From: Pohlia nutans
Lineage: Eukaryota; Streptophyta; Bryopsida; Bryales; Mniaceae
Reading direction: 5' to 3'
DNA length: 64,000 nucleotides
Assembly (NCBI GenBank): GCA_022496805.1
Contig: CM040086.1
Coordinates: 2,730,501 to 2,794,500, forward strand
Below the pieces are notes generated by a model, which saw only the letters and a program-made list of their open reading frames with translations, did no database searches and was not told where the DNA came from. The position numbers and the translations under genes are program-made. This document shows positions 12,420 through 59,649 of this stretch, one piece after another. The number at the start of each line of letters is the position of its first letter. Position 1 is the first letter of the stretch.

Positions 12420-14566
12420 GTCGAAAAGGGCGATGCCGGGCCGAAGCCGTGAGTGTCGCCCGCCACCCGATCCGCATTGCAGCTGGATAAGGCGCCATCT
12501 CCCCCATAGCCAGCCAACCTCAGGCTCAGGCTCTTCGACGGCCTCGCTTCAATTCCTCACCGCTCTGCCCTAACCAAATCCCTCGCAACCATTCCGCATT
12601 GCACAGACAGGGAGGGTCAACATCGCAGCTCGAAACCAGCGCCTGAGTGTTGTTTCCGCTACTTGGACCTGTTTGATTGATCTCGGCCCTGAGCGATGGC
12701 GTCCTCGCTCGCGTGCGGCTCGTCGCTGAAGCTGGCCTCGTTCGACGGGCTGTCCGCGCGCTCGCTGGGCCTGCGCGGCGCCGACCCCGCCTCCTCCGTC
12801 GACATGCTCGCGGGCTCCGAGAGCAGCGCCCATGTGGCCCGCCGCGGGAGCGCCGTGGTCACCGCCGGGCTCAAGGACTTGCGCGACCGCATCGCCACCG
12901 TGAAGAACACGCAGAAGATCACGGACGCCATGAAGCTCGTGGCCGCCGCCAAGGTGCGTCGCGCGCAGGAGGCCGTGGTGAACGGGCGCCCGTTCTCGGA
13001 GAATCTCGTGAAGGTGCTGTTCAATGTCAACGAGCAGCTGGCCACCGAGGACATCGACATCCCGCTGACCAATGTGAGTGGAATTGCTCTTCCTGCATTT
13101 TGATTGTGTGGGTGGGATTGGGCATTGGTGAATTGGAGCATTGGGAATTGGGAATTGAATGTGGCGGAAATGGTGATTGGGCATGCGCATGGTTGGTGGC
13201 TGGAGAATGAATGAATGAATGAATTTATGAATCGCGATTGTAATGAATCGGCTGGATTTTGAGATTGTGAGGTGGGTGGCGAATGGAATGGAATGGTGGT
13301 TTTAGGTGCGGCCGGTGAAGAAGATCGCGCTGGTGGTGATGACGGGCGACAGGGGGCTGTGCGGGGGTTTCAACAACTACGTGCTGAAGAAGGCGGAGGC
13401 GCGGATGAAGGAGCTGCGCGACATCGGGTGCGAGTACACGGTGGTGAGCATCGGGAAGAAGGGCAACGGGTACTTCAAGAGGCGGCCGCAGATCCCCGTG
13501 GACAGGTTTCTGGAGGCCGGGAACGCGCCGACGACGAAGGAGGCGCAGGCCATCGCGGACGAGCTGTTCTCGCTGTTCGTGTCGGAGGAGGTGGACAAGG
13601 TGGAGCTGCTGTACACGCGGTTCGTGTCGCTGATCCGGTCGGACCCCATCATCCACACGCTGCTGCCGCTGTCGCCGCAGGGCGAGGTGTGCGACATCAA
13701 CGGCAACTGCGTGGACGCGGCGGACGACGAGATGTTCCGGCTGACGACCAAGGACGGCAAGTTCTCGGTGGAGCGCGAGGAGCTGCGGACGGAGACGGTG
13801 GCGTTCACGGGCGTGCTGACGTTCGAGCAGGAGCCGGTGCAGATCCTGGACGCGCTGCTGCCGCTGTACCTGAACAGCCAGGTGCTGCGCGCGCTGCAGG
13901 ACAGCATCGCCAGCGAGCTGGCGGCGCGGATGAACGCCATGAACAACGCGTCGGACAATGCGGCGGACCTGAAGAAGTCGCTGTCCATCTCGTACAACAG
14001 GCAACGTCAGGCCAAGATCACGGGCGAGATCCTGGAGATCGTGGCCGGCTCCACCGTCACGATCTAAGTCAGAAAGATCGCTCACTCGTCGACATACATC
14101 TGGGCGTCGTAAGGATTACGATGTTCCCGGAACGATTTGCTGAGAGTCGGTAGCGTTGAGTTTAGTTTGTGTACACTAAATTAGGTGGAGAAGTGGGGAG
14201 GAGTGATTGAGAGCGGGCCCCTGGCTGGCGAGGAGCGGCAGACAGGCGGACGTCGGTGGGAAATGGATGACGAAGCAACAGCGTCGTGCAGTGCATGTGG
14301 ATCTTAGATCACTTGAATTTTGATGGACCGCGGGGTTCTTGGTAGCCACCAATAATTTTTTTCTGTTGAGTAATTATGATGTTGACGATGCTACTTTTCT
14401 GTATCAAGTATTGGAGTGCGTTTCCATGTGGGGCTGGGAGCTGAGAGGTGAGGCACCTTCCAGCGACTTGTGTGGTCCACGGACATGCGCAGAGAGTGTA
14501 ATACCAAATTTGCCGAAATTCCCTTTTATGCCATTTCCTTGTCTGCGTGGCCGTGGTGAATGTGGA
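12420..14566 (+). repeat. inverted duplication, left arm (ATP synthase gamma locus)
   Basis: This ~2.15-kb block recurs in reverse at 30342-32490 with a ~15.8-kb spacer. Similarity covers the proximal promoter/5' leader, both exons, the intron and ~500 bp of 3' flank. It stops near 14566 (GCCGTGGTGAATG) and near 12420. Leaders and 3' flank show indels and substitutions, whereas the exons and intron are almost identical. Confidence 0.9.
12696..14067 (+). CDS. atpC: chloroplast ATP synthase gamma subunit precursor, copy 1
   Basis: Central rotary shaft of the chloroplast F1 ATP synthase, coupling proton flow through the thylakoid CFo ring to ATP synthesis. Two exons, 12696-13073 and 13306-14067, with a 232-bp phase-0 GT-AG intron give 379 residues, close to other plant precursors. 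The first ~50 residues are rich in Ser and Ala with few acids, as in a chloroplast transit peptide. [14 protein letters not shown] marks the mature N-terminus, [12 protein letters not shown] the conserved central region, and [11 protein letters not shown] the C-terminal helix. CDINGNC (Cys ~255 and ~261) is the thioredoxin-controlled disulfide loop found only in photosynthetic gamma subunits. ATG at 12696 opens the frame. GC content is far above the flanks. It converges with the IQD gene; an inverted second copy lies at 30852-32223. Confidence 0.97.
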
Positions 14567-15346
14567 GGATTAAAGTTGATGTTTGATCATAAGAAAGCCT
14601 GTTCTTTTGAATATGCAGTATCTTATGTTTACTTAATACATAATCACATTATCAGCTGGTAAGTTTTAAGGTCAACCCGAATTTTATTGTGCTTGCAATC
14701 CTTGGGCTGCTGGAGATGAATCGGTTGGCTCTTCGTTCATCGGGCTTCCCATCTGGTACTAGGACTTGTGGTTGTGGTTACTGCAGACATATAGTTTGAT
14801 TCTTATCATTCACATCCAAGTGTTGAGAGTATGAACATGACAGAAGAGGTATGCACTTTGGATCGGATTCAAGGAATATTTCTTTAAAAGTAGAAATGGA
14901 TATTCTGTGAGGTTTGGACTCGCAGCGTACTATCCTCCGAGCTGGTCGTGTCGAAAGTGAGTTCAACGATATTTACAGCAGACCTGGCGAATGGAGATTG
15001 TAAAGAGTCTCGGAAGAGAGACATACAACAAGGGTACAAACATTACTGTAAAGGTACGTGCATCCAATTTCACTGCCTGAAATTTATTCCTGGGTGCACA
15101 TACCATCTCCGAGTGACATCTTAGGAGTTGAAATAAACCAACGCTTCAATTTAGAAGTTGTAGAAAATCATTTAAAAGATTCAAGAAAGAAAAAAGAAAT
15201 GTCCCAATAGAAAGAAGAAATCATATTCTACATTTTGAATGATAGAAATATGTTTTCGAAAGTTGGTATGATTAGAGTCCAAGTGGACTTTCTATTTAGA
15301 GCTTGGGCACTTGGGAGTTAAATTGGAGAGGGTAGTGTAATAGGGT
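14567..15346. other. convergent 3' intergenic region
   Basis: Lies between the 3' ends of ATP synthase gamma copy 1 (plus) and the IQD gene (minus) and probably holds both 3' untranslated regions. No further gene recognised. Confidence 0.5.
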
Positions 15347-29909: not shown

Positions 29910-30341
29910 GCCATATGTTTGCTCTCATGTCAAAAACTCAAACACAAAACACACTGTGCTGTGGTAACAAGTGCAAAGCTGTTTGAAGTTGTAGCACAAA
30001 AGGATTAAAACCCCGAAATAGTGAGATTCCATGCACCATGTGATGCTAAAAACATGAGCGATTCAAAAACTGCAATGCAACAACAATTCATGAAATAAAC
30101 ACCACTGCCCAAATATCAGAAGCAAAACGCCTACAAGAGTCAAAAAGGCACCTCCAGATTTGCCGTCACATGCATCAAGAATAATGTAGGTCCGTTGATA
30201 GACATTTCCAGGCATACCTGTATCCGCCTCATCAAGTTTGCGGCAAACAGCAAAATTGCTAAGCGAACATATTTGCGTATTCCAAGAACAAGCGCATTCC
30301 AAGAACAAGCCCACCAATGATCAAACATACATTCTAATCTT
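29910..30341. other. intergenic DNA
   Basis: No gene recognised between the F-box fragment and the end of the inverted duplication. Confidence 0.45.
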
Positions 30342-32490
30342 CAACATTCACCACGGCCACGCAGACAAGGAAATGGCATAAAAGGGAATTTCGGCAAATT
30401 TGGTATTACACTCTCTGCGCATGTCCGTGGACCACACAAGTCGCTGGAAGGTACCTCACCTCTCAGCTCCCAGCCCCCACATGGAAACGCACTCCAATAC
30501 TTGATACAGAAATGTAGCATCGTCAACATCATAATTACTCAACAGAATTTTTTTTATTGGTGGCTACCAAGAACCTCGCGGTCCATCAAAATTCAAGTGA
30601 TCTAAGATCCACATGCACTGCACGACGCTGTTGCTTCGTCATCCATTTCCCACCAACGTCCGCCTGTCTGCACCTCCTCGCCAGCCAGGGGCCCGCTCTC
30701 AATCACTCCTCCCCACTTCTCCACCTAATTTAGTGTACACAAACTAATCTCATCGCTACCGCCTCTCAGCAGATCGTTCCGGGAACATCGTATCCATACG
30801 ACGCCCGGACGTTACGCGGATGTATGTCGACGAGTGAGCGATCTTTCTGACTTAGATCGTGACGGTGGAGCCGGCCACGATCTCCAGGATCTCGCCCGTG
30901 ATCTTGGCCTGACGTTGCCTGTTGTACGAGATGGACAGCGACTTCTTCAGGTCCGCCGCATTGTCCGACGCGTTGTTCATGGCGTTCATCCGCGCCGCCA
31001 GCTCGCTGGCGATGCTGTCCTGCAGCGCGCGCAGCACCTGGCTGTTCAGGTACAGCGGCAGCAGCGCGTCCAGGATCTGCACCGGCTCCTGCTCGAACGT
31101 CAGCACGCCCGTGAACGCCACCGTCTCCGTCCGCAGCTCCTCGCGCTCCACCGAGAACTTGCCGTCCTTGGTCGTCAGCCGGAACATCTCGTCGTCCGCC
31201 GCGTCCACGCAGTTGCCGTTGATGTCGCACACCTCGCCCTGCGGCGACAGCGGCAGCAGCGTGTGGATGATGGGGTCCGACCGGATCAGCGACACGAACC
31301 GCGTGTACAGCAGCTCCACCTTGTCCACCTCCTCCGACACGAACAGCGAGAACAGCTCGTCCGCGATGGCCTGCGCCTCCTTCGTCGTCGGCGCGTTCCC
31401 GGCCTCCAGAAACCTGTCCACGGGGATCTGCGGCCGCCTCTTGAAGTACCCGTTGCCCTTCTTCCCGATGCTCACCACCGTGTACTCGCACCCGATGTCG
31501 CGCAGCTCCTTCATCCGCGCCTCCGCCTTCTTCAGCACGTAGTTGTTGAAACCCCCGCACAGCCCCCTGTCGCCCGTCATCACCACCAGCGCGATCTTCT
31601 TCACCGGCCGCACCTAAAACCACCATTCCATTCCATTCGCCACCCACCTCACAATCTCAAAATCCAGCCGATTCATTACAATCGCGATTCATAAATTCAT
31701 TCATTCATTCATTCTCCAGCCACCAACCATGCGCATGCCCAATCACCATTTCCGCCACATTCAATTCCCAATTCCCAATGCTCCAATTCACCAATGCCCA
31801 ATCCCACCCACACAATCAAAATGCAGGAAGAGCAATTCCACTCACATTGGTCAGCGGGATGTCGATGTCCTCGGTGGCCAGCTGCTCGTTGACATTGAAC
31901 AGCACCTTCACGAGATTCTCCGAGAACGGGCGCCCGTTCACCACGGCCTCCTGCGCGCGACGCACCTTGGCGGCGGCCACGAGCTTCATGGCGTCCGTGA
32001 TCTTCTGCGTGTTCTTCACGGTGGCGATGCGGTCGCGCAGGTCCTTGAGCCCGGCGGTGACCACGGCGCTCCCGCGGCGGGCCACATGGGCGCTGCTGTC
32101 GGAGCCCGTGAGCATGTCGACGGAGGAGGCGGGGTCGGCGCCGCGCAGGCCCAGCGAGCGCGCGGACAGCCCGTCGAACGAGGCCAGCTTCAGCGACGAG
32201 CCGCACGCGAGCGAGGACGCCATCGCTCAGGGCCGAGATCAATCAAACAGGTCCAAGTAGTAGCGGAAACAACACTCAGGCGCTGGTTTCGAGCTGCAAG
32301 GCTTCCCCTCCCGGTCTGTGCAATGCGCAAGGGATTTGGGATGGGCCGGGGCATGCACGGCAGGGCTCAGTGGTGGGGAATTGATGGGATGAGGAGGGAG
32401 TGAGGCTCAGGCTGGCTGGCTATGGTGGAGATGCGCCTTATCCAGCTGCAACGCTGATCGAATGGCGGGCGACATGGCGCAGCGCCCTTT
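30342..32490 (-). repeat. inverted duplication, right arm (ATP synthase gamma locus)
   Basis: Reverse copy of 12420-14566. The intron is identical in both arms and coding differences are few, but the 3' flank has an ~11-bp indel near 30805 and the leader has a 3-bp indel near 32260 plus many substitutions upstream. Confidence 0.9.
30852..32223 (-). CDS. atpC: chloroplast ATP synthase gamma subunit precursor, copy 2
   Basis: Same role and structure as copy 1: exon 1 at 32223-31846, a 232-bp phase-0 intron, exon 2 at 31613-30852, 379 residues. Every landmark is kept, including the [12 protein letters not shown] region, the redox loop CDINGNC and the C-terminal [11 protein letters not shown]. 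The only protein differences seen against copy 1 are Thr for Ala at ~39 and Asp for Glu at ~42, both in the transit-peptide region, so the mature subunits are identical. The frame is intact and the 5' leader is GC-rich, so it is probably expressed. Its proximal upstream sequence has diverged from copy 1, leaving room for different control. Confidence 0.96.
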
Positions 32491-46017: not shown

Positions 46018-47176
46018 TTAACCCCTAAAGGACCAAGTGTCCTAACTTGGACATTTAGAGAATCGGGTAGGTTCCGATGAACACATTTTTAATCGAATTT
46101 TGAAGGAAATTTAATAGTAGATTCCCCAATGTGCCACGAAAATGGGGATTCTTTTTTTTTGAATTCCGACACCGTATGTGAAAGTTATGAGGGGAAATGT
46201 GTTTTTTTCGGGAAAAAGGGCAGCGAGGCAGTAGAGAAATAGTTGAATTTTAGGGGGGGGGGGGCAACAAGATGGGCGGTGTGTGGAAAATGGGGTGCAG
46301 AAGACCACCCCGTTTTCCAAACTCATAAAAAATTTTAAAAATTTTAAAATATTTTTTTATAAATAAAAATAATTATTTTAAATTGAAAAGTATTATTTTA
46401 AACTAAAAGTTCAATTTCATAATTAAAAATACTATTTAAAAAATTGAAAAATAAAATAATTTTTAAAAATAAAAAATAAAAAATAAAATCGTTCAATGAG
46501 AGACTGCCACGTGGCAGTGTACCTTGAGAGTTAGTGGGGTCATGAACATTGGAATGAGCAATTCCCTTCCTCCACCCTTTATTTCCCCCCTAACCCCCAA
46601 AATTCTTAGAAAATGTGCTACATGTCTTCTAAAACTTGGAGATTTAATTTTTTTCAAATTTTTTTTCGCCATTTTGTAGAGGGTGGAATGTACTTGTGTT
46701 TCACCGCTCGGATTTGTATTTTAAATAAAGAAAGTCGAAAATATTGCAATTCCAAAAACATAGTCTTTTCTGAACTTTTAAACCCCCAACAAGTGCAAGG
46801 TGTTATTCAACATCCTAAACATCTCCAAACGCAACGAAAATTGGTACACAACTAAGTAACATCATATAGAATGTGAAAGTGAAGTGCGACAAGTTTCGGT
46901 AGTGAGGTTTTTTTGATGTAGCTGTGGTCAAACGCATCTGAAATTTTCGGGCATGTGTTTTTTTGGGTGTTTTTTTCCATCAAACGCAATTATCTAGCAA
47001 TCCGTGCGGTCAAAATCAACGAAATTTGTTGTGTATGTTTTTCAAATAGTTTAGGACAAGATCTTACGGTTAGAAGGTAAAAAATAACATTCTTTTGGAT
47101 TTTTTGCATGGGGGAGTAAAAATGGCAGCATTGGAGTGTTTTTGGAGGAAAAACACTCTGGTCCTTTAGGGGTTAA
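46018..47176. mobile_element. 1.16-kb TTAA-type element, non-autonomous
   Basis: TTAACCCCTAAAGGACC at the left and GGTCCTTTAGGGGTTAA at the right are perfect 17-bp inverted ends including TTAA. They match family D ends. The interior is A/T- and G-tract-rich with no transposase-sized frame. It stops 10 bp before the large transposon. Confidence 0.85.
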
Positions 47177-47186
47177 AATACCCTAT

Positions 47187-47212
47187 AACACCCATTTCGT
47201 TAAAAGTGCACA
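47187..47212 (+). repeat. left terminal inverted repeat of the large transposon
   Basis: 26 bp beginning AACACCCATTTCGTTAAAAG and ending TGCACA; differs from the right end only at position 9 (T versus A). Confidence 0.88.
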
Positions 47213-47733
47213 TGCCCCTCTAAAATTGCACATTGTGAATTTTTGATAGGACTCTGGATGAGTGAAAATAGCATAAAAAGGCTATGAAAATATATGCCAA
47301 AAAATAATGTAATTCTTGAATTAAGCCATTGGCAAATTTTGTGTTAAAAGAGTACATTGGGGTTCATTATATAAAAATTGTCCTCCACGCAATTATTTAA
47401 GTTTTTTTAAATTGTTTTTTGGAGTTTCTAAAGTTTAGGTTTATGTTTTTGGAGTGTTTTAAATTTTACATGTTTTTATGTGGATTTTGCAATAAGTTAA
47501 TTGCAAAGACGGCACTAAATCCAACCAATCTATACTACTTATTCTACAACAACTCCTTAAAAAATCCGATAAATGGTTAGGCGTATGCCTAACCCCTCAA
47601 CATGTTTGCTAAAATACACTGAAAATAGCTTGCTAAAATACACTGAGAAATGCACACCATGTATTAAACTAAAGCAAAAGATTGTTTTTCCACCATACAA
47701 CATATACCATAAAACATTGCAATTCTATTTTCC
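47213..47733. other. left arm of the transposon
   Basis: Non-coding. One perfect palindrome unit, GGTTAGGCGTATGCCTAACC, lies at 47575-47594, about 390 bp inside the terminus; the transposase gene ends shortly after. Confidence 0.7.
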
Positions 47734-50700
47734 CTATATCTGGGCTACGTCGTTCTCCATACTAACTTGATGTTGCCAATTTATCATCTCTAAATGGTTG
47801 TAGAGATGATTTTTTTCAGCAGTAGGAATCTTTATATCTTTCTCTGTTCTATTGCCAAATATTGTTACTAAATTTTTAGTTCCCACTGTATTTTTCCACG
47901 CAGTAAAGATTGATTGAATGGGAATACAATCATTTCTTTCTCGAGAGGGTTCCCATCCTCGTTCTATGCAATTCCTATACCGTTTGAAAAACTTCCCAGT
48001 CTCGTCCCGCACACCAAAATGCATTTTTGGTTGATACCACGTAACAGTTGCAGTACCATCAGTACATGTTTGTCGGCTCATCTTCAACACCTTTGCTATA
48101 AAAAACGGTATTCCAATGCTGCGATCTTCATCAGTAGTTTCCAAAGCGGCGAACATTCCAATAGAAACATCCTTACTAGGATTGAATGGAGGAAAAGCAT
48201 TGGGGACCACTGAATTTGATTGTACCAATGAGGCATTCGGCAAATTTTGAGTTACATTTGTAACTCTACCATGACTATTGTTTCTCGGTCGTACTCGATG
48301 GCCTACAGGTCTTTGGGACCGAGGCCCAAAGAAATCTGAGACCATCACTGGAGGTAGAGATTGAAGAACACTTGCGATCGCTTCATTTGATGTAGTCTCC
48401 TCTATTGAAAGCATAATATTTTGTTCTATGCCTTCATCTTCAAATGGCCAAAATGGTGATAATGCATCCATACTCCGATCCCTCTTAGGAAACTCTTTCA
48501 AATACGTGATCAGCTTTGAAGTCTCTTCAATTGCTTCAAGGTTTCTTTCCACGTTCGTCTGTCTTAGAATTTGCCGTTCCTTTAGCAATATATAGTCCTC
48601 TAGTGCCTTCAATTCCCTGTCATCTGCTTGAGAAACTTCAGCCAAATCGGGTTTTGAATGAACTGAAGGAATTGTTTCAAAACAAACATAGCCAGTAGGA
48701 GGCAACCACAATGGAGATCTTGCATATGGTTTGTATTGTACATGTGCTTCACCTTCTTGTACATAAAATCTAAAATGATGAGGTTGGCTTATGCCAACAA
48801 ATGCATCTTTTCGCAAGTGCGGAGAGATGAACTTCTTCCAATCTTGAACATGCTCCAAATGTTCAGCCCGAATGAATGGTTCGGAACGTGACGGCTTTTC
48901 TTGAATTATTTGCAACAACTCTTTCAATGAGTTTATATCTCTGAGCTTCAATGCAGACGATATGGAGCTAAATCTTTGGTCAATATCCTCATGTGTATGA
49001 CCCACAATCAGGAAAGATAATTGGATTTCTTTGAAAAATCCTAAGCCAACTAGAGCAGCACACATGCCCAACATGTATACATTCTTGTTCTCTCTCCCAC
49101 AGTTGTCGGCTTGAATGTGGAGAATAGGAGGCAACTTCTTCTGAATGCGTTGAACATCTTGCAATACCTTCATTATAGACGTTACAACTTGATTGCTGTC
49201 ATGTTTATGATGAGAGTCAATCCATAGATGGCAATATAGGCCTATACCATGTACCAGAATCCCACATAAATGTGTCTTGACATACCGAGATTCAATATTC
49301 TTCACGTTCTGCTTGAATTTTGGCACGTATGTTGTATTTTGATCCATGCCATCAATAATAATGCTCATGCTATCTTCAGGATTAGCAATAGCCTTTTCTC
49401 TTACTCGACTATAAGCCTTTCTTTCTTCAATCGTCAAGTCAATATGAAGGCGATACGCTGCGTGTATAGCTTCCCTCATGGCTTGATTAGGCATTGACTG
49501 CCTACTTTCCTTGTATTCCCAACAATGTTGGCATTTTGAAAATCTGGACTCCTCTGGCACATGCACATTTGTAAACTCCTTCTTCCACATCTTCGAAAAC
49601 GTTGACAGTCCAATTTCTTTTTCACCCATTTTGGACAATGATGTATTTATAACCATTAGAACTTCGTGCTGCAAAACACCCATAGGTAAACAAATCACAG
49701 GAACAATTTCACCGTCCGCCTTACGTCGTACTTGACGATGGGGTTGAGTTTCTCCAAAACATTGGATAAACGATTCAAACTTTGCCCTTGCCATAGATAT
49801 ATGTGTCGCTTCCCTTTGGTTGCCCGTATTACCGTGGATGGGGTTGTGTACATCTTTCTCTCGAATATTTGACATGATTTTGTTCATCCTCCTTCTTGAA
49901 TATCCAATTGCTGCTGCAAAGCAACTATTACAAACTTTCATCCCAGAGATCTTTGTTTCAAACTTGAATCCAATTTCCAAATCATGACGTGCTACTTTAA
50001 ACGCTCGTAGTGTAGTTACCAACCACATGGCCCGCTTTGCGTAACTTATATCTTCCCATGCTTGGTATCTTAAAGATAAAATATCAAATGCACTTATAGG
50101 CTCCAAGCAATGTTTTGAGCAAATTGGTCTTTGCTTCACTTCTTCTACTGCAGCTAATGTTACCTTTTCTCCCCGTCTCATTCCAATTTGGCGAGGTCCC
50201 CCGGGACATCTCTTCTTCCGACGTATACTAACATATGACCTCTTTGGAAGAGATGATGACAATCCATCCATAGAATGCACAAAAGATGATCCTTGCGCAT
50301 TTCCAGCACTTCTATTTACACTATTTCCTGCTTGAGTATTTTCAGGAATTTCAACTCCATCGACATTTGGAGATGAAATCAACCTTAGTTCCTTTGTTTG
50401 GGAACAAGGCCATCTGATAACTTTGCCATGCACTCTCCCATTGTTGACATGTATAATTCATACACATTTGCATTCTCATCCTTCACACTTCGCACTAGTA
50501 CAACTACATCACTTGCTCGAACAGGACGTCCTCCAACCATACATCCCACAACATGTTCTTGAACTACACCGCGAGCAACCTCAAGTCCTCCAATGTCTAA
50601 AAGTGCTACATATTTATAGTTTCCCGATGAATTTGGTGTAGGAAAGTTTGTAGATGCATCTGACGTTCGAAAATTTGAGATAAATCCAGGACTTGAGAGG

Positions 50701-50771
50701 CCATGTGAACTAGAAGCCAAATCCACAAAACTCATCTTCTTAATCCACTCATTCCAAAATGGCTGCATCAC
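47734..50771 (-). CDS. DUF7869-type DDE-like protein, probable transposase
   Basis: Main frame 50433-47734 (~899 codons), preceded by an overlapping 128-codon frame (50771-50385). The upstream piece (KYVALLDIGGLEVARGVV) and the start of the main frame (HGKVIRWPC) look like one N-terminal domain, so they are probably joined by a short intron or separated by a frameshift. In main-frame numbering: Cys pairs at ~105-109, 168-171 and 301-304 suggest zinc binding; then IIIDGMDQ (361-364), HIQADNCGRENKN (Asp443) and VGHTHEDIDQRFS (478-488). This D...D...E/D order with DN.G..NKN and GHTH..ID is the DUF7869 pattern and fits an RNase H-like nuclease core. A C-terminal WYQPKMHFG region resembles small chromatin-binding modules. 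Its place inside a TIR-bounded element makes a transposase role likely but unproven. Confidence 0.75.
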
Positions 50772-50894
50772 AAAACAGATTAAATCAAACTCATGTTTAG
50801 AATGAAGTCCCCAAATGAAAAAAACAAAATATTGTAAGATTAGCTAATCCTCCCCCCTCTCCAATCACTTGCAATTATTATGTAGAGCACTAAG

Positions 50895-52000
50895 TGACGG
50901 GGATTAGCCATACGCCTAACCCCCTATGACTATAATTATTTGATACTATACCAAGTGAAGGGGTGTTAGATGTATGTTTAACCCATCTCACTTTTATTGA
51001 TTTTTAAAACTGCAAGTGATGGAGGATTAAACATATACCTAACCAACCTCCGTCCATTATCACTTGCAATTATTACCCAAACTAGCAAGTGATGGGAATT
51101 GCACATATGCCCAATCCCCCAAACATTTATAATTTTCAACAAAATAAATGTCTGGGGGTAAGGCATATGCCTAACCCCTCAACACTTACAATTTCTAACA
51201 AATTAGAATATTGAAGGGTTAGGAATAAGTATAACTTTCCAACTTTTAAAAACTTTAACAAAATAAGATGTTAGAGGGTTAGGCATATGTCTATCCTACC
51301 AACACTTCAATTATATAGTAGAATAAAATATGGAAGAGTTAAACATACGCTTAACCCCCTATCACTTCAATTAGTTGTTAAAATACCAAGTGACGGTGGT
51401 TTAGTATACGCCTAACCCATATCACTTGAATCATTTGTTGCAATATTGAGTGATAAGGGTTAGGCATGTGCCTAATCCCTTTTAATTAATTTTAAAAATT
51501 ACAAATCATAATAATTGAAAGTAACTTGTCATTACCTTCAAGTATTAGGTAAAATACCAAGTAATACAGGTAAGTAATACCAATGATAAGGGCTTACAAC
51601 ACACAATTCGCTATTTACGCACTTGGCTATATAATCATGCACTTCGTCCCCGAGCGCATGATTTTATTTGTCTAACTTTTATTTTTTTTAAACCAACGAT
51701 TATTGTCTTTCTTCAATCCCTTACATTGTAAACAAATAATTATTTTAATAAATTTTTATTCTCATCTTTATCTTTTCTTTTATCTTTTCTTTTTTATCTT
51801 GATTTCTTTCTCGTCTTCTTTCTTGTCTTCTTTCTTGTCTTCTTTTTGTCTTTCTTCTTGTCTTCCTTTTTGTCTTCGTTATCTTTTTTTTCTTCTACTT
51901 TTTCTTCAGAGGGTTAGGCATGTGCCTGATCCACTAATACTTTATTATGTAGCATAATAATACCTGGGAGGATTAGGCATATGTCTAACCCCTCAACTCT
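50895..52000. repeat. palindrome array 1 (about 12 units)
   Basis: Units based on GGTTAGGCATATGCCTAACC recur near 50900, 50958, 51020, 51096, 51152, 51214, 51272, 51338, 51402, 51458, 51909 and 51973. The best units extend to AAGTGAT..G at one side and ATCACTT at the other, making ~40-bp palindromes, spaced about 55-75 bp. The array begins ~125 bp upstream of the transposase frame. Confidence 0.88.
51690..51905. repeat. pyrimidine-rich tract
   Basis: C/T-rich sequence built from CTTGTCTTCTTT-like repeats interrupts array 1 between its tenth and eleventh units. Confidence 0.8.
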
Positions 52001-52433
52001 TACAATTTCTAAACAGAGTATAATATGGGAGGTTTCCATGGAACAGTTTCCACAATTAATAAGTCAACTGACTAGCCGTTCGCTTCAGTTCGCAGTTTAA
52101 TTACAGACTTGATAGCTTCTTCACATCGAATTATGCAACTACAGAAATAGTACGACTTACTGCACACAGGGCTCTTCAATGAGCACAAGCGCCGTTGGAA
52201 ACGAATACTCTGGTTCCAACAATTTCTCCCCGTCTACTCAAAATTACATAAACACAAGCTTCCTCGTTCCGCGTGCGGTTCAGGAGCCACGTTTTCCACC
52301 ACCGCACGGCTTCGAGCTCGGTTCGGGAGCCAGGGTTTCCGCCGCCGCGCGGTTTGGTGCGTGGTTGGTGCGTGGTTTGGTGCGCGGTTTGGTACGTGGT
52401 GCCAGGGTTTCCGCCGCGTTCTGCTTGCTGCTG

Positions 52434-52650
52434 AATCACGATCACGAAGGCGATCACGAAGGCGATCACGAAGCCGATCACGAAGCCGATCACGAATGCG
52501 ATCACGAAGGCGATCACGAAGGCGGAATCACGAAGGCTGAATCACGAAGGCTGAATCACGAAGGCTGAATCACGAAGGCGATCACGAAGGCTGATCACGA
52601 AGGCTGAATTAGGAAGGCGATCAGGAAGGCGATCACGAAGGCGAATCAGG
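52434..52650. repeat. 12-bp minisatellite GATCACGAAGGC
   Basis: About 16 units of GATCACGAAGGC and variants (AATCACGAAGGCT) in tandem, the last few diverging to AGGAAGGC. Confidence 0.92.
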
Positions 52651-52840
52651 TCGGCCGATGAAGGAGGCTGTGACGCAGTCTTGGATTCGCACTACCTCGG
52701 GGGAGGCGACTACGACTCAGTCTCGCAGTGAGAATGGCTTCAATACACGGGAAGGTCGGCCGGTGAGGGACGCTGTGATGCGGTCCTGGGATTCGAACTA
52801 CCTCGGGGGAGGCGACTACGACTCAGTCTCGCAGCTCATT
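52651..52840. repeat. ~108-bp tandem duplication
   Basis: AACTACCTCGGGGGAGGCGA followed by CTACGACTCAGTCTCGCAG occurs at ~52690-52730 and ~52797-52834, each preceded by AGG.CGGCCG.TGA.G and GCTGTGA.GC.GTC.TGG. Confidence 0.85.
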
Positions 52841-53415
52841 TCCAGATCACTCGTCTCCAGATCACTCGTCCATTCTGAATTTCACTCGTCCAGGTCTGAA
52901 TTCTGTCCATTCTGATTTCTCCTTCTCTTCTCTGTAACGCTGATCCAATGGCAGTAGCATTGCATTGTAAGAGTACCTGTCTGTGTGTTGTTGAATCAAG
53001 GTGCTGATACTTTTGTGCAGTAGGAGGCCTTCGGCGTGCAGGGGTCATTCTCTCATATCAAGTGTGTGTCCAGATTAGAACAAGTTTTGAAGTCAAGCAT
53101 AGGGATCAAACATGGTTGCTAGAGAAATTTCAATCCAGGCTGGTTACTTCTGCACACTAGGCTTGAACTATGCGGCGCAAAATGGTAGTGATTCAGTGCG
53201 GTCAAGTGAATTTATATGCATTGCAGACATTTGATATCTGTAAGTTTCAAGCAGAGGATAATTACCTGAGGTGGCTGTAATTCAAGAAACCTACACTGTA
53301 GTGGAACGGTTGTAGAGACCCGCACTCTAGTGTAACAGTGGATATTAATCTCGTTTTCATTTTCACCTAATTTGCGGTACCCTTTCCAGCGATTCATACG
53401 CATAATTAATCGCAG

Positions 53416-53507
53416 CAAGCCACATGCGGAGAGAGATAGTCAACTTCATCCACTGGCAGCTAATTGTGGCTGGAATCGTTCTTTCTGGTGGCCTCATCGC
53501 CCCTGTT
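53416..53507 (+). pseudogene. captured host exon, unidentified (piece 1)
   Basis: A segment bounded by an acceptor-like ATCGCAG and a donor-like GTAAGAC reads HMRREIVNFIHWQLIVAGIV in one frame, followed by LSGGLIAPV, resembling a membrane-anchored N-terminus. Not recognised; shown only because splice borders and frame agree with the next piece. Confidence 0.4.
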
Positions 53508-53632
53508 GTAAGACACTGCATTCTCCCTTAGTTTTGTGTATTTTATAGTTCGAGAGCCTTGAAGTCATTCTTAGTTGTTACCTTTTGAGGACCATTTCCA
53601 CGCGCTTACTAGTGTGACGTGGCTTTGTACAG

Positions 53633-53709
53633 CTGGAGTTGAAGTTGGGTCTGGGAGGTACATCATACAAAGACTTCATCCAAAACCTGCATCATCCCAT
53701 GCAACTGAG
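53633..53709 (+). pseudogene. captured host exon, unidentified (piece 2)
   Basis: Bounded by TTTGTACAG and GTGCGC, reads LELKLGLGGTSYKDFIQNL and then HHPMQL. Could continue piece 1 in phase. Not recognised. Confidence 0.4.
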
Positions 53710-53899
53710 GTGCGCTGATACTAATTGCCTTATTTTTTCTTTTCCTTTTCTTCCAGCCAGATCATCATCGGTTAAACCATTTGGTGTGAACATCAATTGG
53801 GCTGCATATCCTCTCTTTTGATATGTTTTCATCAAGAAAAAAGACGTTTGTTTTTCAGTGATGGGATTAGATCCTAACTTGCAATTATTTTTTAAATAC

Positions 53900-54260
53900 T
53901 AAGTGATGGGGTTAGGCATACGCCTTACCCTCATCACTTTGATTATTTTTAAAATTCCTAGTGTTGGGTTCAGGCGTATGCCTAACCCCTACCATTTGTA
54001 TTATTTGTTAAAACACCTAGTGATAGAAGGATTAGACGTATGCCTAACCCCTATCACTTCAATTAGTTTTTAAAATTGCAAGTGATGAAGAGTTAAGCAA
54101 ACCCCTATTCCTCCAATCATTTGCAGTTATTTTCTAAAACACCAATTTTTTAAATACTAAATGATGGAGGGTTAGGCATATGTCTAACCCCCTTAACAAT
54201 TTGGATTTTCAAAAATAATTGTAGTGATAGGGAGTTAAGCGTATGTCTAATCCTTTATGT
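53900..54260. repeat. palindrome array 2 (about 6 units)
   Basis: Units near 53912, 53970, 54030, 54088 (decayed), 54168 and 54240. The first three, with spacers, recur almost exactly at 54663-54783, a segmental duplication. Confidence 0.85.
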
Positions 54261-54314
54261 TTATTTTCTTAAGACATCAGAAGGGATGGTGAATTTTGTT
54301 CTCGTTGTGTGCAG

Positions 54315-54397
54315 TTGCTGAAATCCCTAAGTTTGCTTCTGGAAGCTAAAGTTTTTCATTGTGACTTGAGGCCAGAGAACAGTCTTCTTATTGAAAG
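54315..54397 (+). pseudogene. captured protein-kinase catalytic-loop exon
   Basis: Between TGTGTGCAG and GTAACC lies an 83-bp open stretch, LLKSLSLLLEAKVFHCDLRP followed by ENSLLIE. This matches kinase subdomain VIb, where DYRK-type kinases have HCDLKPENILL; the catalytic Lys has become Arg and Ile has become Ser. Because both splice borders are kept, the piece came from genomic DNA rather than from mRNA. No other kinase domain follows, so it is a fragment carried by the transposon between palindrome arrays 2 and 3. Confidence 0.7.
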
Positions 54398-54604
54398 GTA
54401 ACCATTATGAATTCCATTTTCTACTTACCGAAATCTATCATTTAGATGGAATGTGAGTTAATGTGAGTTAATATCACTGGCTTTGATGATAATGTGAGTT
54501 AATGTGAAGCATCTCGCTTTGTGGATGTATCACTCATTTACCTTATAGGCCAGAGGATATAATAGTACGGATTCAATTATTTGATCGAAGTTACTAACAA
54601 GATT

Positions 54605-54995
54605 TTAAGTGATGCAGGGTTAGGCATATGTCCAATCCCCTAATAACTTGCAATTATTTTTTAAATACCAAGTGATGGGGTTAGGCATACGCCTTACCCT
54701 CATCACTTTAATTAATTTTAAAATTCCTAGTGTTGGGTTTAGGCGTATGCCTAACCCCTACCATTTGTATTATTTGTTAAAATACAAAGTGATGGAACGG
54801 TTAGGCATTCACCTAACTCCTATCACTTCAATTAGTTTTAAAAACTGCATACATAACATTTAGATATGTCTAGTCAAGTGATTGAATTTCTTGTGACTGT
54901 TGCCGTGATGATGTGATTGAGACACAATGAAGAATTGGTAGAAATGGTATCATGCAATTAATACCATTGGGGGGTTAGGCGTGTGCCTAACCCTC
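54605..54995. repeat. palindrome array 3 (about 5 units)
   Basis: Units near 54618, 54679, 54740, 54800 and 54972 (GGGTTAGGCGTGTGCCTAAC); the last lies about 100 bp before the ParB/methyltransferase-like gene. Confidence 0.85.
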
Positions 54996-55069
54996 TTATG
55001 TTTAATCTCTTGAAACATTTTTGATTTTAATTTTTCAGTGCAAAATTTTGTAGGTGATCAAGGGATCTA

Positions 55070-58000
55070 ATGGCTTCTTGAAAGCAACGGCCCCCTAAGG
55101 AAGCTCCAAAAGTAGTGGATTCTTTTAAGAGCCATGGATGGTGGATATCACGAGATGACAAGCTTCCTATTTTGCGATTATCCGATTATGCATGGGAAGA
55201 GAAGGATCTATGGTGTGGACTAACTTATGGTGCAGGCTACATAGCTAAAGTAGCTGAAGTCTCATCAACTGAAGAACAAGGCTTGTGTGAAGTGTTTATG
55301 CGGGGGATGAAGAGCGGTGAACCGTCTTTATATATTTTGAGGACCAAAAACATAATGCAATCTCCAGATTGTTTGTTGGAGTTGAAATTTGGGGGTCTAC
55401 CAAAATATCGAAAGTGGTGGAGTAGTGTTGGAAGTATTGAACAAGATTTGCGTGAGAAGATGGTGTTTGTAGTTTCCAGCATGAATGCAAATAAGAAGGA
55501 GAGATTGAAGGTTTATATGGAGAAGCACGAGAGGGCTATTGCTGTTTTTACCTCTCGTGATGGAGGGTCTGAAATCGTACCAACTTCATCTTTGAAAGAA
55601 GATGTTATCATTGATGGGTTATCGTTTATGTGCATAGGCGAACATTGCTTGATAAAGTTTTGCCTCCTACATCAAATGTTGCCTCTACATCAAAAAAGAG
55701 GAACCCAAGTTCTATACTATCATTTTCTCAAGGTGGAGGGGCTTCATCAAGTGCTAACATTTGTTTATCAGTTTTTGATTTTGACGCACCACCTCAGCCC
55801 TCAAAGAAGATTTCAAGTCGAAGTTGGAGTAACTTGTTAGTAGGCGATGGTTCTACTTCACAAACAGTTTTAAAAAAAGATAAAATGATCTTGCCAACTC
55901 CTCATGAGATTGAGTCAGGATACGTGTTTGGTAGGGATCATTTTTTTTATGTTGATATTGCTAATGTGAGACCTGCAAGCAATATTCTTACAAATCAACG
56001 AATGTTGAACACTGCAAATGCTGAGTTTGTTTACAAAAGGTTGAGGGAAAATCAACTTCTTGAAACAAACGTGATGACGTTGCGTCCTATGGAATACTTG
56101 CCACTTTCTAACGAAGAAAATGTTATTGAACGCTATACGTTCAAAGGAAAAGAAACAAGGATTGATTTTTTGAGGTGTTTGAATGCTATGCCCGGAGATT
56201 CATTTGAAGAAAAAAGGGATAATTTTTTACCTTTGGTTATTTGGGAACCTGTCGATGGCCAACATATTCTGCATGCTTGCCAAGTATTAGCACAACGTGA
56301 TCGCGAGGCTGGTCTCATTTCTGAAGCTGAATATGAAAAGTCATTTATGAAAAGACCTGCTCAAGTTGTAGCCTACGACGAAGAGTTCAGGTATTTGGTG
56401 GCTTCTTGCAAGAAAAATGAAGAGAATACTGAAAGAATATATCATAGCACTGTTGGGGAAATCTTGGCAAAAACGCGTGCAGTATGGAAGCAATTTGGTT
56501 CACCAAACCCATACAACGATGAAGACATAGATCGCCGACGTTTTTTTTTACAATGTTTGCCTAGTATTACAGAGGTTCGTTTAGGAAAAGATGGAAGTGA
56601 GTTCACTGTCTCAAAAATGAATTTACAATTTAGAGATTATATCTCAATGGCTACAGTGAGTGATGATTGTTGGATAGCTTTTAACAACATGTGTAAGTCT
56701 TATGATCAAGGGTTTACATATTATTCAGAGAAGGCACGAAAAGAAGCAGTCCAACAAGAAGGTGTTGTTGGAAATACAAAATCTAAAAAATTCAAGTTAA
56801 GTGAGCGTCCACGTATATCGATAACATGGCTTAGACCATTGCAAGGAACAAGTGGAAATGATTTTGTTTTACTATGTCAAGGCGCAACGGTGACCGAGGA
56901 GGGTCATTTGCAGAAAGTGTATTTTGGAGCTTCTTCAAAATCTACTTCAGAAATGGACGTGCACACCTTGCAATATTTAGCAGATACATCAAAGCTTCGA
57001 ACAGGAATTCACAATGCTCTCAAATGGCTTGATGCCGAAGCATCTGGAGGAATTGATGATAAGAAGAATTGGTTAAGTAGAGATGTGCAAAAATATGGGG
57101 ACACAAGCGCGTTAGATTTTTTTGGGAGGGATGCAACTAAAGATTTCAAGAGCAAATGGGTGCATCTAAAAGACTTTACAAGTTTTGAGGCAATGGAGAA
57201 GCATAGTGCTTTGATTCCTTCTAATGTTCGAATTCACTTGTCGAAGTTGATTTTGGAGGGAAAATCGGGACTTTTTGCAAATGGAAAAGAGTTGTTCATA
57301 GGAAGTGAAGGAGTTTGGAATCTAGAATTTAATTTTTCTGGAGTTAGAGGTGCAGGTATGGATACAACGGTAAAAGTGGGAGGCAACATATTTTCTGAAG
57401 TTATGGGGAAGTTTGGAAGTCCAGCATTGTGGGTTTTTGATTGCCGTAAAGGACAAAATGGGCAGTTCTGGACAGAAATGGAGTACAAGAGTATTGTTGG
57501 GATCATATCAAAGTGGATGGAAGATGTGCCTCGTTGGATTGCAATTTTTATGTTGCCAGCTGGCGAGAATGCAGATATGGTTATAGAGCTGTTAGGATTG
57601 AAGACTTCTCTGGGGTGGCACGTTACAAAAGGAAATTATGTGTTCTCCAACCAATGTCAGGCCTCAGGAAGTGTTATCAGGGATGGACAATGCATAATTG
57701 CAAAGTATACACCAGTGGGACCAATTATTTTTGTCATACATCATCCTCCAACAGCTCCAGTTGCAGATAATCTTGCAGCAAATGTGAAATTGTTGGATTC
57801 TATTTTTGTAGAACCTCGAGGTGGTTGGGATTTGTGTACAAAATATCGTGATGCACGTTGTCCAGCAGTTGTTGATCAAATTATTGAATCTTACTATCGA
57901 CTAAGGTCGTGGATGATAGTTGCTCATGGAATCTCTCACATGATTCACACCCTTGCTGGAAAGACAACAGAAGTTATAATATTTGAATCAGATGAGAACA

Positions 58001-58638
58001 TTGCACTTTGGTTGCGTCGATGGAAACGAGAGGCAGTGGATGGAATTAAACCTCGAGACGGAGAGGAGAAATTGTGGGAAGACGGAGAAGTTGATTCATC
58101 GGAAACATCCAATGAAAGCAGTGATGATTCTTTGTGTGCAGATGAAGTCCAGAGTCCAGCGCCAAAGAGAATGAAGACAACAAATATTCAAGGAAAAGAG
58201 AAGAATGTTGTCACAAATCAAGTTGCTAGGAAGAGTTTGCTTCAAGATTTTGACGGCGAAGAGAACTTATCACAAGAAGAAGAGATAATTGCATCAACAC
58301 CAAACCCAGAACGTGATGGTTTCAATTTAGATGGATATAAGTATTTTCCAGAATTTGATCTATGGTTTGATGGAGAAGGTTGGAATACACGTGAAGAAGT
58401 CCCAAATATTGATGTAGAAGGGAGGAAAACGTACAAATATGTTAAATCGATTGGACTAGGCGAAATGTTTGGTGGTCCTTCAACAACTTCAAATGCAACA
58501 GATCTCGATGATCAGGCTCACGTTGAAGTTATAGCTGGGTTAAATGCTGCTGAAGAGTTTATCAATAGATCATCTCTTGTTTCATTTGGAAAAGATGCAT
58601 TTAGCTTAGGTTTGGGAAATACTGAATCTCAAACTTAA
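55070..58638 (+). CDS. ParB-like / DNA-methyltransferase-like fusion protein
   Basis: Two overlapping frames: 55115-55840 (~241 codons, opening VDSFKSHGWWISRDD without ATG, so an upstream exon is likely) and 55630-58638 (~1002 codons). A short intron or frameshift near 55620-55640 would join them. In second-frame numbering: a Ser-rich linker; residues ~145-255 (TLRPMEYLPL, PLVIWEPVDGQHILHACQVL, RPAQVVAYDE) follow the order of a ParB N-terminal domain; residues ~590-800 follow the layout of an amino-methyltransferase, with PALWVFDCRKG where DPPY/W is expected, RCPAVVDQIIESYYRLRSWM like the helix before the SAM site, then EVIIFESDE. Both the catalytic D-P-P and the Gly-rich SAM loop are altered, so it may bind DNA without methylating it. 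The C-terminus is acidic with PKRMK, a possible nuclear signal. ParB-methyltransferase fusions are known from phages and bacteria; here the assignment is by pattern only. Confidence 0.6.
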
Positions 58639-59525
58639 GAGACTACTTGGTAATAGATTTTATGTAGTAGTGAAATGTTTTTAGATACTAAAATTATAGA
58701 TATTATAGTATTTTTACTACGAAGTTATTTTCTTTATATATATGTTGGTATTGTGTGTCTTGAATATAAATGAATTTTTGAGTATTAATTTTTTTTTGTA
58801 TAAAGGTTGTAAAAAAAGGAATGTTTTATGAAAATAAAGGACTAGATTGCATGTATGTTGTGAAGCATTGGATTATAGAAGTCTTGAATAACATCATGGA
58901 TGTCAAACTTTTTTAATTCTACTATTTAGGAACTATGATATTATATTCATTAATTTTTATATTATATTAGAATACAAAAGACAATTATAGAAAATCTCAT
59001 GAATAGGAGATTTTAGACTTGAATGCAATCAAGATGGAATTCAATTTCCAAAGTGCAGATCTAGATTACTGATGTATGGATTTTAGTACTAATGATTTCT
59101 AAATTCAATTTTATTTATCAATTTTTTTAAATGTACATGTTTGATTTTCAAACTAGAAGTTCTAGATACACGTGATGGATTGGCACTTCGGCATATGCCT
59201 AACCATTTTATTGTAATTATTTTGTAAAGTTGCAAGTTAGAGGAGGTTCATTTGTATTCCTATCTGTGTCAAAAACTTAATTGACAATTGCAAGTGAAAA
59301 AGGTTAGGCTTATGCCTAACCCTTTTATTTGATTTTATTAATTGATTCTTTCAATATTCTAATTTGGAATAAGTATTTGTCATACTTGTTGTATTGGAAA
59401 TGGCAGCATCACTTCAATGTAAATAAGAACATAAAAAAAAATTATGAATCATTTTTACTTGTATTTTTAGGTGTTTCAATCAATCAAAAACAAATTTTGA
59501 CCAAAATTTAAAGTGCACATGCTGT
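58639..59525. other. right arm of the transposon
   Basis: AT-rich, non-coding. Two palindrome units lie at about 59190 (GGCATATGCCTAACC, half decayed) and 59299-59320 (GGTTAGGCTTATGCCTAACC), ~240-360 bp inside the right terminus, mirroring the left arm. Confidence 0.7.
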
Positions 59526-59551
59526 TGTGCACTTTTAACGAATTGGGTGTT
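59526..59551 (-). repeat. right terminal inverted repeat of the large transposon
   Basis: Reverse complement begins AACACCCAATTCGTTAAAAG and ends TGCACA. CTAT follows at 59552-59555. Confidence 0.88.
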
Positions 59552-59649
59552 CTATCATTTGTTCGCACGTATATTGCTACTCCAACCACTCACTACCCTT
59601 CATGAGGATTTTGTTCATTGCCCATTTTCTAGGTGGTTGGATGTTTAGG

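Follow-up and report, generated by a model that had tools for sequence, protein, structure and literature searches.

A 64,000-nucleotide stretch of the genome of the moss Pohlia nutans (GenBank assembly GCA_022496805.1, contig CM040086.1, positions 2,730,501 to 2,794,500), which we call the window, holds a 12,365-bp element with inverted ends and two long open reading frames (ORFs) that point away from each other. The locus raises the question of whether these parts belong to one mobile element and, if so, what a second large protein is doing beside the transposase. We find that the element is a DNA transposon (subfamily A1) that carries ORF1, a protein with a DUF7869 domain, and ORF2, an orphan protein that exceeds 1,000 residues and has been retained beside the transposase over deep divergence. 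What is new is this conserved two-gene architecture, with its orphan partner and its palindrome arrays. A listing-level literature search for the gene pair, for DUF7869 and for Sola transposons in moss gave no account of the pair, and the term 'DUF7869' was not met in the literature searched.

Copies, target-site duplications and empty sites

A sequence-only reading of the window had described inverted ends, a CTAT duplication, long divergent frames and palindromes, and all of these are present (Table 1). When the 26-bp terminal inverted repeat (TIR) was searched with up to three mismatches against the 697.8-Mb genome, 434 forward and 407 reverse matches were obtained (841 together), whereas the reversed pattern, used as a control, gave none in either direction. 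Ten additional A1 places were then chosen from the list of DUF7869 matches and read. Both ends are present in nine of them, 11.5-13.5 kb apart, and in the remaining one (L015) the right end is absent from the stretch read. Further copies with these TIRs, which the sequence-only reading had proposed to look for, therefore exist in number.

A perfect 4-bp target-site duplication (TSD) flanks the element at eight of the 11 A1 places, the window counted, and each is different (CTAT, AAAC, AGTA, TTGG, TCCT, GTAG, TCAA and TTTG); at L009 and L027 the flanking 4-mers mismatch. One copy each of three related subfamilies was also read, and each has a 4-bp TSD: A2 on C11 (about 16.7 kb, ends AACACTTGTTTCGTTAAAAGTGCAC, TSD CCAT), A3 on C15 (ends AACAAGGGTTTCGTTAAAAGTGC, TSD ATTA) and B on C20 (about 21.7 kb, ends AACAC(C/T)GTATTAGCAATTCATGCACTTG, TSD AGAT). 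A further group, C, was read only in part, short of its ends.

The joined flanks of the 11 TSD-bearing copies (eight A1 and one each of A2, A3 and B) served as queries for a genome-wide search for empty sites, in which the best 40 candidates were scored. At least 44 matches were found, representing at least five of the 11 junctions (at least 33 for L019, four for B, three for L023, and two each for A2 and L011). Seven of the eight sites that were read align without gaps over 176-180 bases at 88-98.9% identity, with a single target copy at the junction, which in the two B sites reads ACAT in place of AGAT. The eighth aligns at 81% identity with four gapped columns and again has one target copy. 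Matched junctions with a single target copy are empty sites. For the CTAT of the window itself, where the sequence-only reading had suggested looking, the insertion's own empty site was not among the 40 scored places, but this says little because the insertion lies next to a high-copy repeat, whose end forms the left flank (47097-47186). Most matches of that flank end a few bases before the insertion point. At four places (on C5, C12, C16 and C17), an L019 empty site lies about 0.1-1 kb from one of A2 or L011. With empty sites of different insertions so close together, a high-copy repeat of one kind seems to have been the target of the L011, L019 and A2 copies; the repeat at the window copy's left flank is another one.

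Among ten copies, the mean Kimura two-parameter (K2P) distance over the left 3.65 kb is 0.0126 (range 0.0017-0.0161). The window copy had been called 'intact or near-intact', which is true of its boundaries but not of its genes, since each is divided between two frames, ORF1 near 50.4 kb and ORF2 near 55.6-55.8 kb. Elsewhere, a single ORF1 frame of 1045-1046 codons, N-terminal region included, is found at seven of the ten other places fetched, and one other ORF2 place has an uninterrupted frame of 1192 codons. The window copy is best explained as a fairly recent, now frame-broken member of the family, and because both of its genes are split between frames it is probably dead despite its intact ends. 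Two full copies on C3 (L009/L010 and L011/L012) lie in opposite orientation with about 56 kb between them and a K2P distance of 0.0017. Their ORF2 stops are the same in kind and number, and a TSD is present in one copy only, such that their resemblance may reflect a segmental duplication or rearrangement.

Three short copies were also found. One of 897 bp has both ends, two palindromes and no clean 4-bp TSD. The other two, of 5.6 kb and 5.5 kb, have the ends plus 25 and 26 palindromes, respectively, no ORF1 match, and the start of ORF2 as short remnants only; of these short copies, the 5.6-kb one alone is flanked by a matching 4-bp TSD.

The DUF7869 protein and its divergent partner

ORF1 matches DUF7869 (PF25273) at 193.7 bits, where the Pfam cut-off is 26. 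The database relatives of this domain are uncharacterised proteins spread across many eukaryotes. An AlphaFold2 model of the ORF1 core has the DDE-transposase (RNase-H-like) fold, and its VIA-align matches are DDE enzymes, which agrees with the DDE/D character claimed for this protein by the sequence-only reading and supports, by fold, the classification of ORF1 as a DDE/D transposase. In alignment A5, the residues D132, D135, D214, D254 and D256 are near-invariant and sit at two core-strand ends and a helix start. On a reading of the secondary structure, D361, D443 and D483 of the window ORF1 would occupy the DDE positions. Between ORF1 and its counterpart in L011, 69, 134 and 113 differences fall at codon positions 1, 2 and 3; the third position shows no excess, and the count hence gives no indication of selection between the two copies. 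In IMG/VR, pattern scans yielded no relatives of ORF1 or ORF2. Because DUF7869 is found in elements with defined ends, 4-bp TSDs and empty sites, these observations argue that it is a transposase family. A further DUF7869 subfamily with 1066-aa frames is also present in P. nutans (e.g. C19:17728351 and C15:20399316).

In the A1, A2, A3 and B copies read end to end, ORF1 and ORF2 share one divergent arrangement. More broadly, with the DUF7869 set limited to the best 150 of 1932 candidates, a DUF7869 match lay within 30 kb of ORF2 at 76 of 116 ORF2 places. Of these linked pairs, 75 are divergent, one is on the same strand and none is convergent, whereas under random placement 0.48 divergent pairs are expected on average. 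Thus copies, TSDs, empty sites and linkage all agree with the earlier claim of a mobile element that pairs a DUF7869 transposase with a divergent partner gene. Given that the pair stays back to back in diverged relatives within the same genome, ORF2 is suggested to be part of how the element works.

At least five ORF2 groups (A1, A2, A3, B and C) are present in P. nutans. A2 is about 49% identical to A1, A3 is 38-39% identical to A2, B is about 25% identical to A1, and C is about 50% identical to B. Searches of Pfam, PHROGs and PDB sequences with the window ORF2 gave no match at the thresholds used. Eight ORF2s compared with Pfam, PHROGs and NCBIfam at E values up to 10 gave only scattered matches, each by a single one of the ORF2s (best 0.12, 0.071 and 2.4), among them one to CxC3, the KDZ transposase-associated cluster, which was taken as chance (E 0.16 in one of eight members). 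A profile search of a 5.8-billion-protein set recovered six relatives among 7,991 scored candidates, all of them fragments of 337-561 residues, and an AlphaFold2 model of ORF2 built with these six relatives has a predicted local distance difference test (pLDDT) score of 36.

The gene pairing bears on two other accounts of ORF2. One is that an ancestral element picked up ORF2 a single time as a passenger and that the gene has hitch-hiked since then, for which the host exon-like DNA in the centre of the element might speak. However, neutral cargo is expected to be lost or scrambled, and instead the side and orientation of ORF2 are constant in four subfamilies and conserved blocks persist at about 25% identity, such that we find this account very improbable. 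The other takes ORF2 to be no regulator but an additional subunit of the transpososome, catalytic or structural, of the kind known from two-protein transposases. The steadiness of the pairing across a large divergence and the size of ORF2, which equals or exceeds that of the transposase, are in keeping with this idea, but no catalytic motif was recognised in ORF2, and animal and protist DUF7869 proteins are listed as single proteins (as protein entries, neighbouring genes aside). We grant it some weight while judging it unlikely.

Palindrome arrays and the role of ORF2

The palindrome core TTAGGCATATGCCTAA, allowing up to three mismatches, occurs at 20 sites in the element and at none in the window's remaining 51.6 kb, and 20 base-shuffles of the element give a mean of 0.05 sites. 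The arrays are therefore confined to the element, as the sequence-only reading had it. Of the 20 sites, 17 are in two central clusters, one is to the left of ORF1 and two are to the right of ORF2. A generic scan for any palindrome did not find the element enriched (2.43 per kb, compared with 2.51 per kb in window positions 1-47000), which means that one particular motif is what is arrayed. Across their 22 central positions, the window's sites, which were chosen by their match to the core, have 1.45 bits per column, compared with 0.45 in the adjoining spacers.

Among A1 elements, nine fetched copies have 17-30 GGTTAGGCATATGCCTAACC-like palindromes each. The A3 copy has 13 sites around GTGAGGCATGTGCCTCAC at a spacing of about 80 bp, and the A2 copy has 47 sites around GGTGGGAATGTGCCCACC spaced about 60 bp apart, and the 3-kb stretch they occupy resembles a young tandem repeat. 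Palindromes spaced by 60-80 bp are thus found in three of the four subfamilies read. Their arms vary by subfamily with complementarity kept, and the centres of the A2 and A3 palindromes are imperfectly palindromic.

We consider it quite probable that these large moss elements make up one cut-and-paste family, with ORF1 as a DDE/D transposase, ORF2 as a needed partner and the palindromes as likely docking sites. The two genes would be transcribed outward from a common centre. ORF1 would recognise the AACA... ends and insert the element with a 4-bp stagger into varied targets; the ends and the insertion pattern are seen directly in the copies, and the catalytic role is predicted from the modelled fold. 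ORF2 would be specific to the element and retained because the element needs it, and by analogy with the role of TNPA for En/Spm it would most likely bind DNA and regulate or assist transposition. The central arrays, in three of four subfamilies, would most likely be where a dimeric regulator docks to control both divergent promoters, and we infer that a dimer encoded by the element would bind the palindromes.

An alternative is that the arrays dock a host factor of the basic helix-loop-helix (bHLH) type, rather than an element protein, and that this factor drives both promoters. The E-box consensus is CANNTG, and the cores CATATG (A1) and CATGTG (A3) are E-box-like. However, the A2 core, AATGTG, falls outside CANNTG. 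Moreover, the arms beyond the core vary by subfamily yet remain complementary, and therefore an element-specific partner fits better than a host bHLH factor, which seems to us an unlikely, though not a negligible, candidate.

The sequence-only reading had offered a different identity for ORF2, describing it as ParB/methyltransferase-like. On this account, ORF2 derives from a phage or bacterial ParB-methyltransferase, binds the palindromes as ParB binds parS, with the effect that the element is marked, protected or silenced. It draws on the invariant WEP(V/I)DGQH of ORF2, which we take to resemble DGQHR/ParB motifs, on the arrays that lie beside the gene with arms that have changed together, and on a weak, colinear alignment of the C-terminal region to N6/N4 methyltransferases in a hidden Markov model (HMM) comparison. 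Further comparison did not support the description. Searches of Pfam, PHROGs, NCBIfam and PDB sequences matched ORF2 to nothing of the ParB or methyltransferase kind, and its structure model is unusable. No relative of the window ORF2 was found in phages or in a pattern scan of GTDB genomes, and none of a B-group ORF2 in plasmids. HMM comparisons stayed near control level: the motif region against four ParB-type sequences gave P 0.24, compared with 0.14 for the reversed control (5 sequences); the C-terminal region against nine E. coli and viral methyltransferases gave P 0.14, compared with 0.71 reversed; and the whole of ORF2 against methyltransferases gave P 0.57, compared with 0.79 reversed. 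Known relatives in the same setup reach 58.6, 99.4 and 99.9% probability. A DPPY-type motif is absent from the aligned C-terminal region, and it is only a guess that the invariant FDCR of ORF2 stands in its place. We regard this origin as improbable, and the label ParB/METHYLTRANSFERASE was dropped given the unsupportive profile searches and HMM comparisons, although a very distant relation keeps a small probability.

A bolder variant, which we think distinctly improbable, is that these elements are a branch of a transposon superfamily in which a palindrome-binding partner, perhaps distantly related to ParB-like clamps, loads within the element on an array that resembles a centromere and thereby controls expression, silencing or transpososome assembly. 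If true, a partition-like nucleoprotein complex would belong to a plant transposon, and its protein and array would co-evolve between subfamilies.

Several points weigh against our proposal of a cut-and-paste family with a needed, palindrome-binding partner. The function that it gives to ORF2 is one that we infer. Foldseek with the ORF1 model gave no match at E <= 0.001, and after Metnase its list consists mainly of Argonaute-type proteins. At 40 of the 116 ORF2 places there is no DUF7869 match within 30 kb, which may be partly because the best 150 of the 1932 candidates were used. The conservation of the palindromes is inflated by the choice of sites by core match, and in A2 the spacers nearly equal the sites in conservation (1.63 versus 1.84 bits). 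Over the 16.3 kb read, the B copy has ORF2 and no comparable palindrome array, and thus array and ORF2 are not strictly coupled. Finally, the 897-bp copy, with its ends and two palindromes, suggests that the array is dispensable in cis for spread, although a clean 4-bp TSD is missing from it.

Relation to known transposons and wider meaning

Sola elements are described as having a DDD transposase, 4-bp TSDs, TIRs of varied length and sizes that can exceed 15 kb (PMC10741241), and Sola1 has been reported from the moss Physcomitrella (PMC9033089). The P. nutans family is like them, compared by description, in its 4-bp TSD, putative DDD pattern, TIRs of differing length, large size and moss host. 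A second gene or a palindrome array goes unmentioned in the Sola descriptions available to us from these sources (PMC10741241, PMC9033089). We accordingly call the family Sola-like, a likeness drawn from descriptions, and set it apart by its two genes, its orphan partner and its palindrome arrays.

Two-protein systems are known in other plant transposons. En/Spm encodes the DNA-binding regulator TNPA and the transposase TNPD, and to our knowledge it has neither a DUF7869 transposase nor a divergent gene order. MuDR likewise combines a transposase with a second protein gene, and has long TIRs and 9-bp TSDs; the P. nutans family shares the second gene within one plant element and differs in its short TIRs and 4-bp TSDs. 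For Mutator, additional protein(s) are said to be possible aids to movement (PMC10741241). CACTA elements, the group of En/Spm, are described as plant elements of more than 10 kb with short TIRs and captured host sequences (PMC10741241). The P. nutans elements resemble them in being large plant elements with short TIRs, captured host DNA and a two-protein system, but their ends read AACACCC, AACACTT, AACAAGG and AACACY, not CACTA or CACTG, and their TSDs are of 4 bp, not 3 bp. Membership of CACTA was rejected on these two grounds. KolobokP, a eukaryotic DNA transposon that also has a second protein gene, combines a DDD/E transposase with a His-Me nuclease, has long terminal direct repeats and is reported from seven animal phyla; Kolobok in general targets TTAA (PMC9587614). 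Kolobok and piggyBac were rejected because a TTAA target duplication is absent from the 11 TSDs (CTAT to AGAT).

The centre of the element, between the palindrome clusters, consists of a minisatellite and exon-like DNA, and the segment at about 51.6-53.9 kb is largely unlike between copies. The 83-base exon-like piece matches Pkinase at E 0.023 and 14.5 bits, under the cut-off of 31.7. Such a variable centre is like those described for gene-capturing CACTA and Pack-MULE elements (PMC10741241).

Table 1. Features of the transposon in the window (positions are those of the window)
Feature	Position	Strand	Remarks
Whole transposon, 12,365 bp (subfamily A1)	47187..59551		TIRs and TSD; nine more two-ended copies alignable
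Left target-site duplication CTAT	47183..47186		
Right target-site duplication CTAT	59552..59555		
Left TIR AACACCCATTTCGTTAAAAGTGCACA	47187..47212	+	
Right TIR, 25/26 identical	59526..59551	-	
Single palindrome between left TIR and ORF1	47577..47592		
ORF1 main open part, 899 aa in window copy	47734..50433	-	Pfam DUF7869 E 3.2e-57
DUF7869 domain, ORF1 residues 382-571	48721..49290	-	
Candidate catalytic acids D361 (DGMDQ), D443 (QADN), D483 (GHTHEDID), window ORF1 numbering	48985..49353	-	Near-invariant columns
ORF1 N-terminal part, other frame (frame break)	50385..50771	-	
Left palindrome cluster, 7 of 20 sites, upstream of ORF1	50904..51988		
12- to 14-bp minisatellite, variable centre	52427..52655		More repeat copies in L009 and L011
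Right palindrome cluster, 10 of 20 sites, upstream of ORF2	53912..54990		
Exon-like fragment, 83 bases, AG before and GT after	54315..54397	+	Resembles protein-kinase catalytic loop
ORF2 N-terminal part, frame differs from remainder	55115..55840	+	Single frame in copy L013/L014 and P0001
ORF2 main open part, 1002 aa, orphan partner protein	55630..58638	+	
WEPVDGQH motif	56242..56265	+	Invariant (V/I) in five aligned ORF2s: A1, A2, A3, B, C
Two palindromes between ORF2 and right TIR	59187..59319		

Two further repeats were observed. At G000:C6:19538962-19885072, at least 22 transposon ends run in one direction, and among the matches listed 20 of 21 spacings are 16.27-16.34 kb and one is 20.0 kb. 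This array is a macrosatellite that includes part of the transposon; L047 covers the start of one unit, and the stretch of unit read has an open 711-aa frame with a GTPase family match (MMR_HSR1, E 1.9e-8). In the window itself, positions 12454-14590 and 30317-32474 form a 2.1-kb inverted duplication, 95.8% identical, with open frames overlapping on both strands; the four frames scanned have no Pfam matches.

The P. nutans assembly comprises 698.20 Mb on 22 chromosomes, and DNA transposons are reported to make up 23.68% of it (PMC9247546), a share to which transposon families of this two-gene type may contribute. The DUF7869 genes in databases can now be re-examined as transposase candidates. 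The role of ORF2 in movement is open to direct testing, and the changes in palindrome arms between subfamilies provide a natural series for pairing an element protein with its own binding site.

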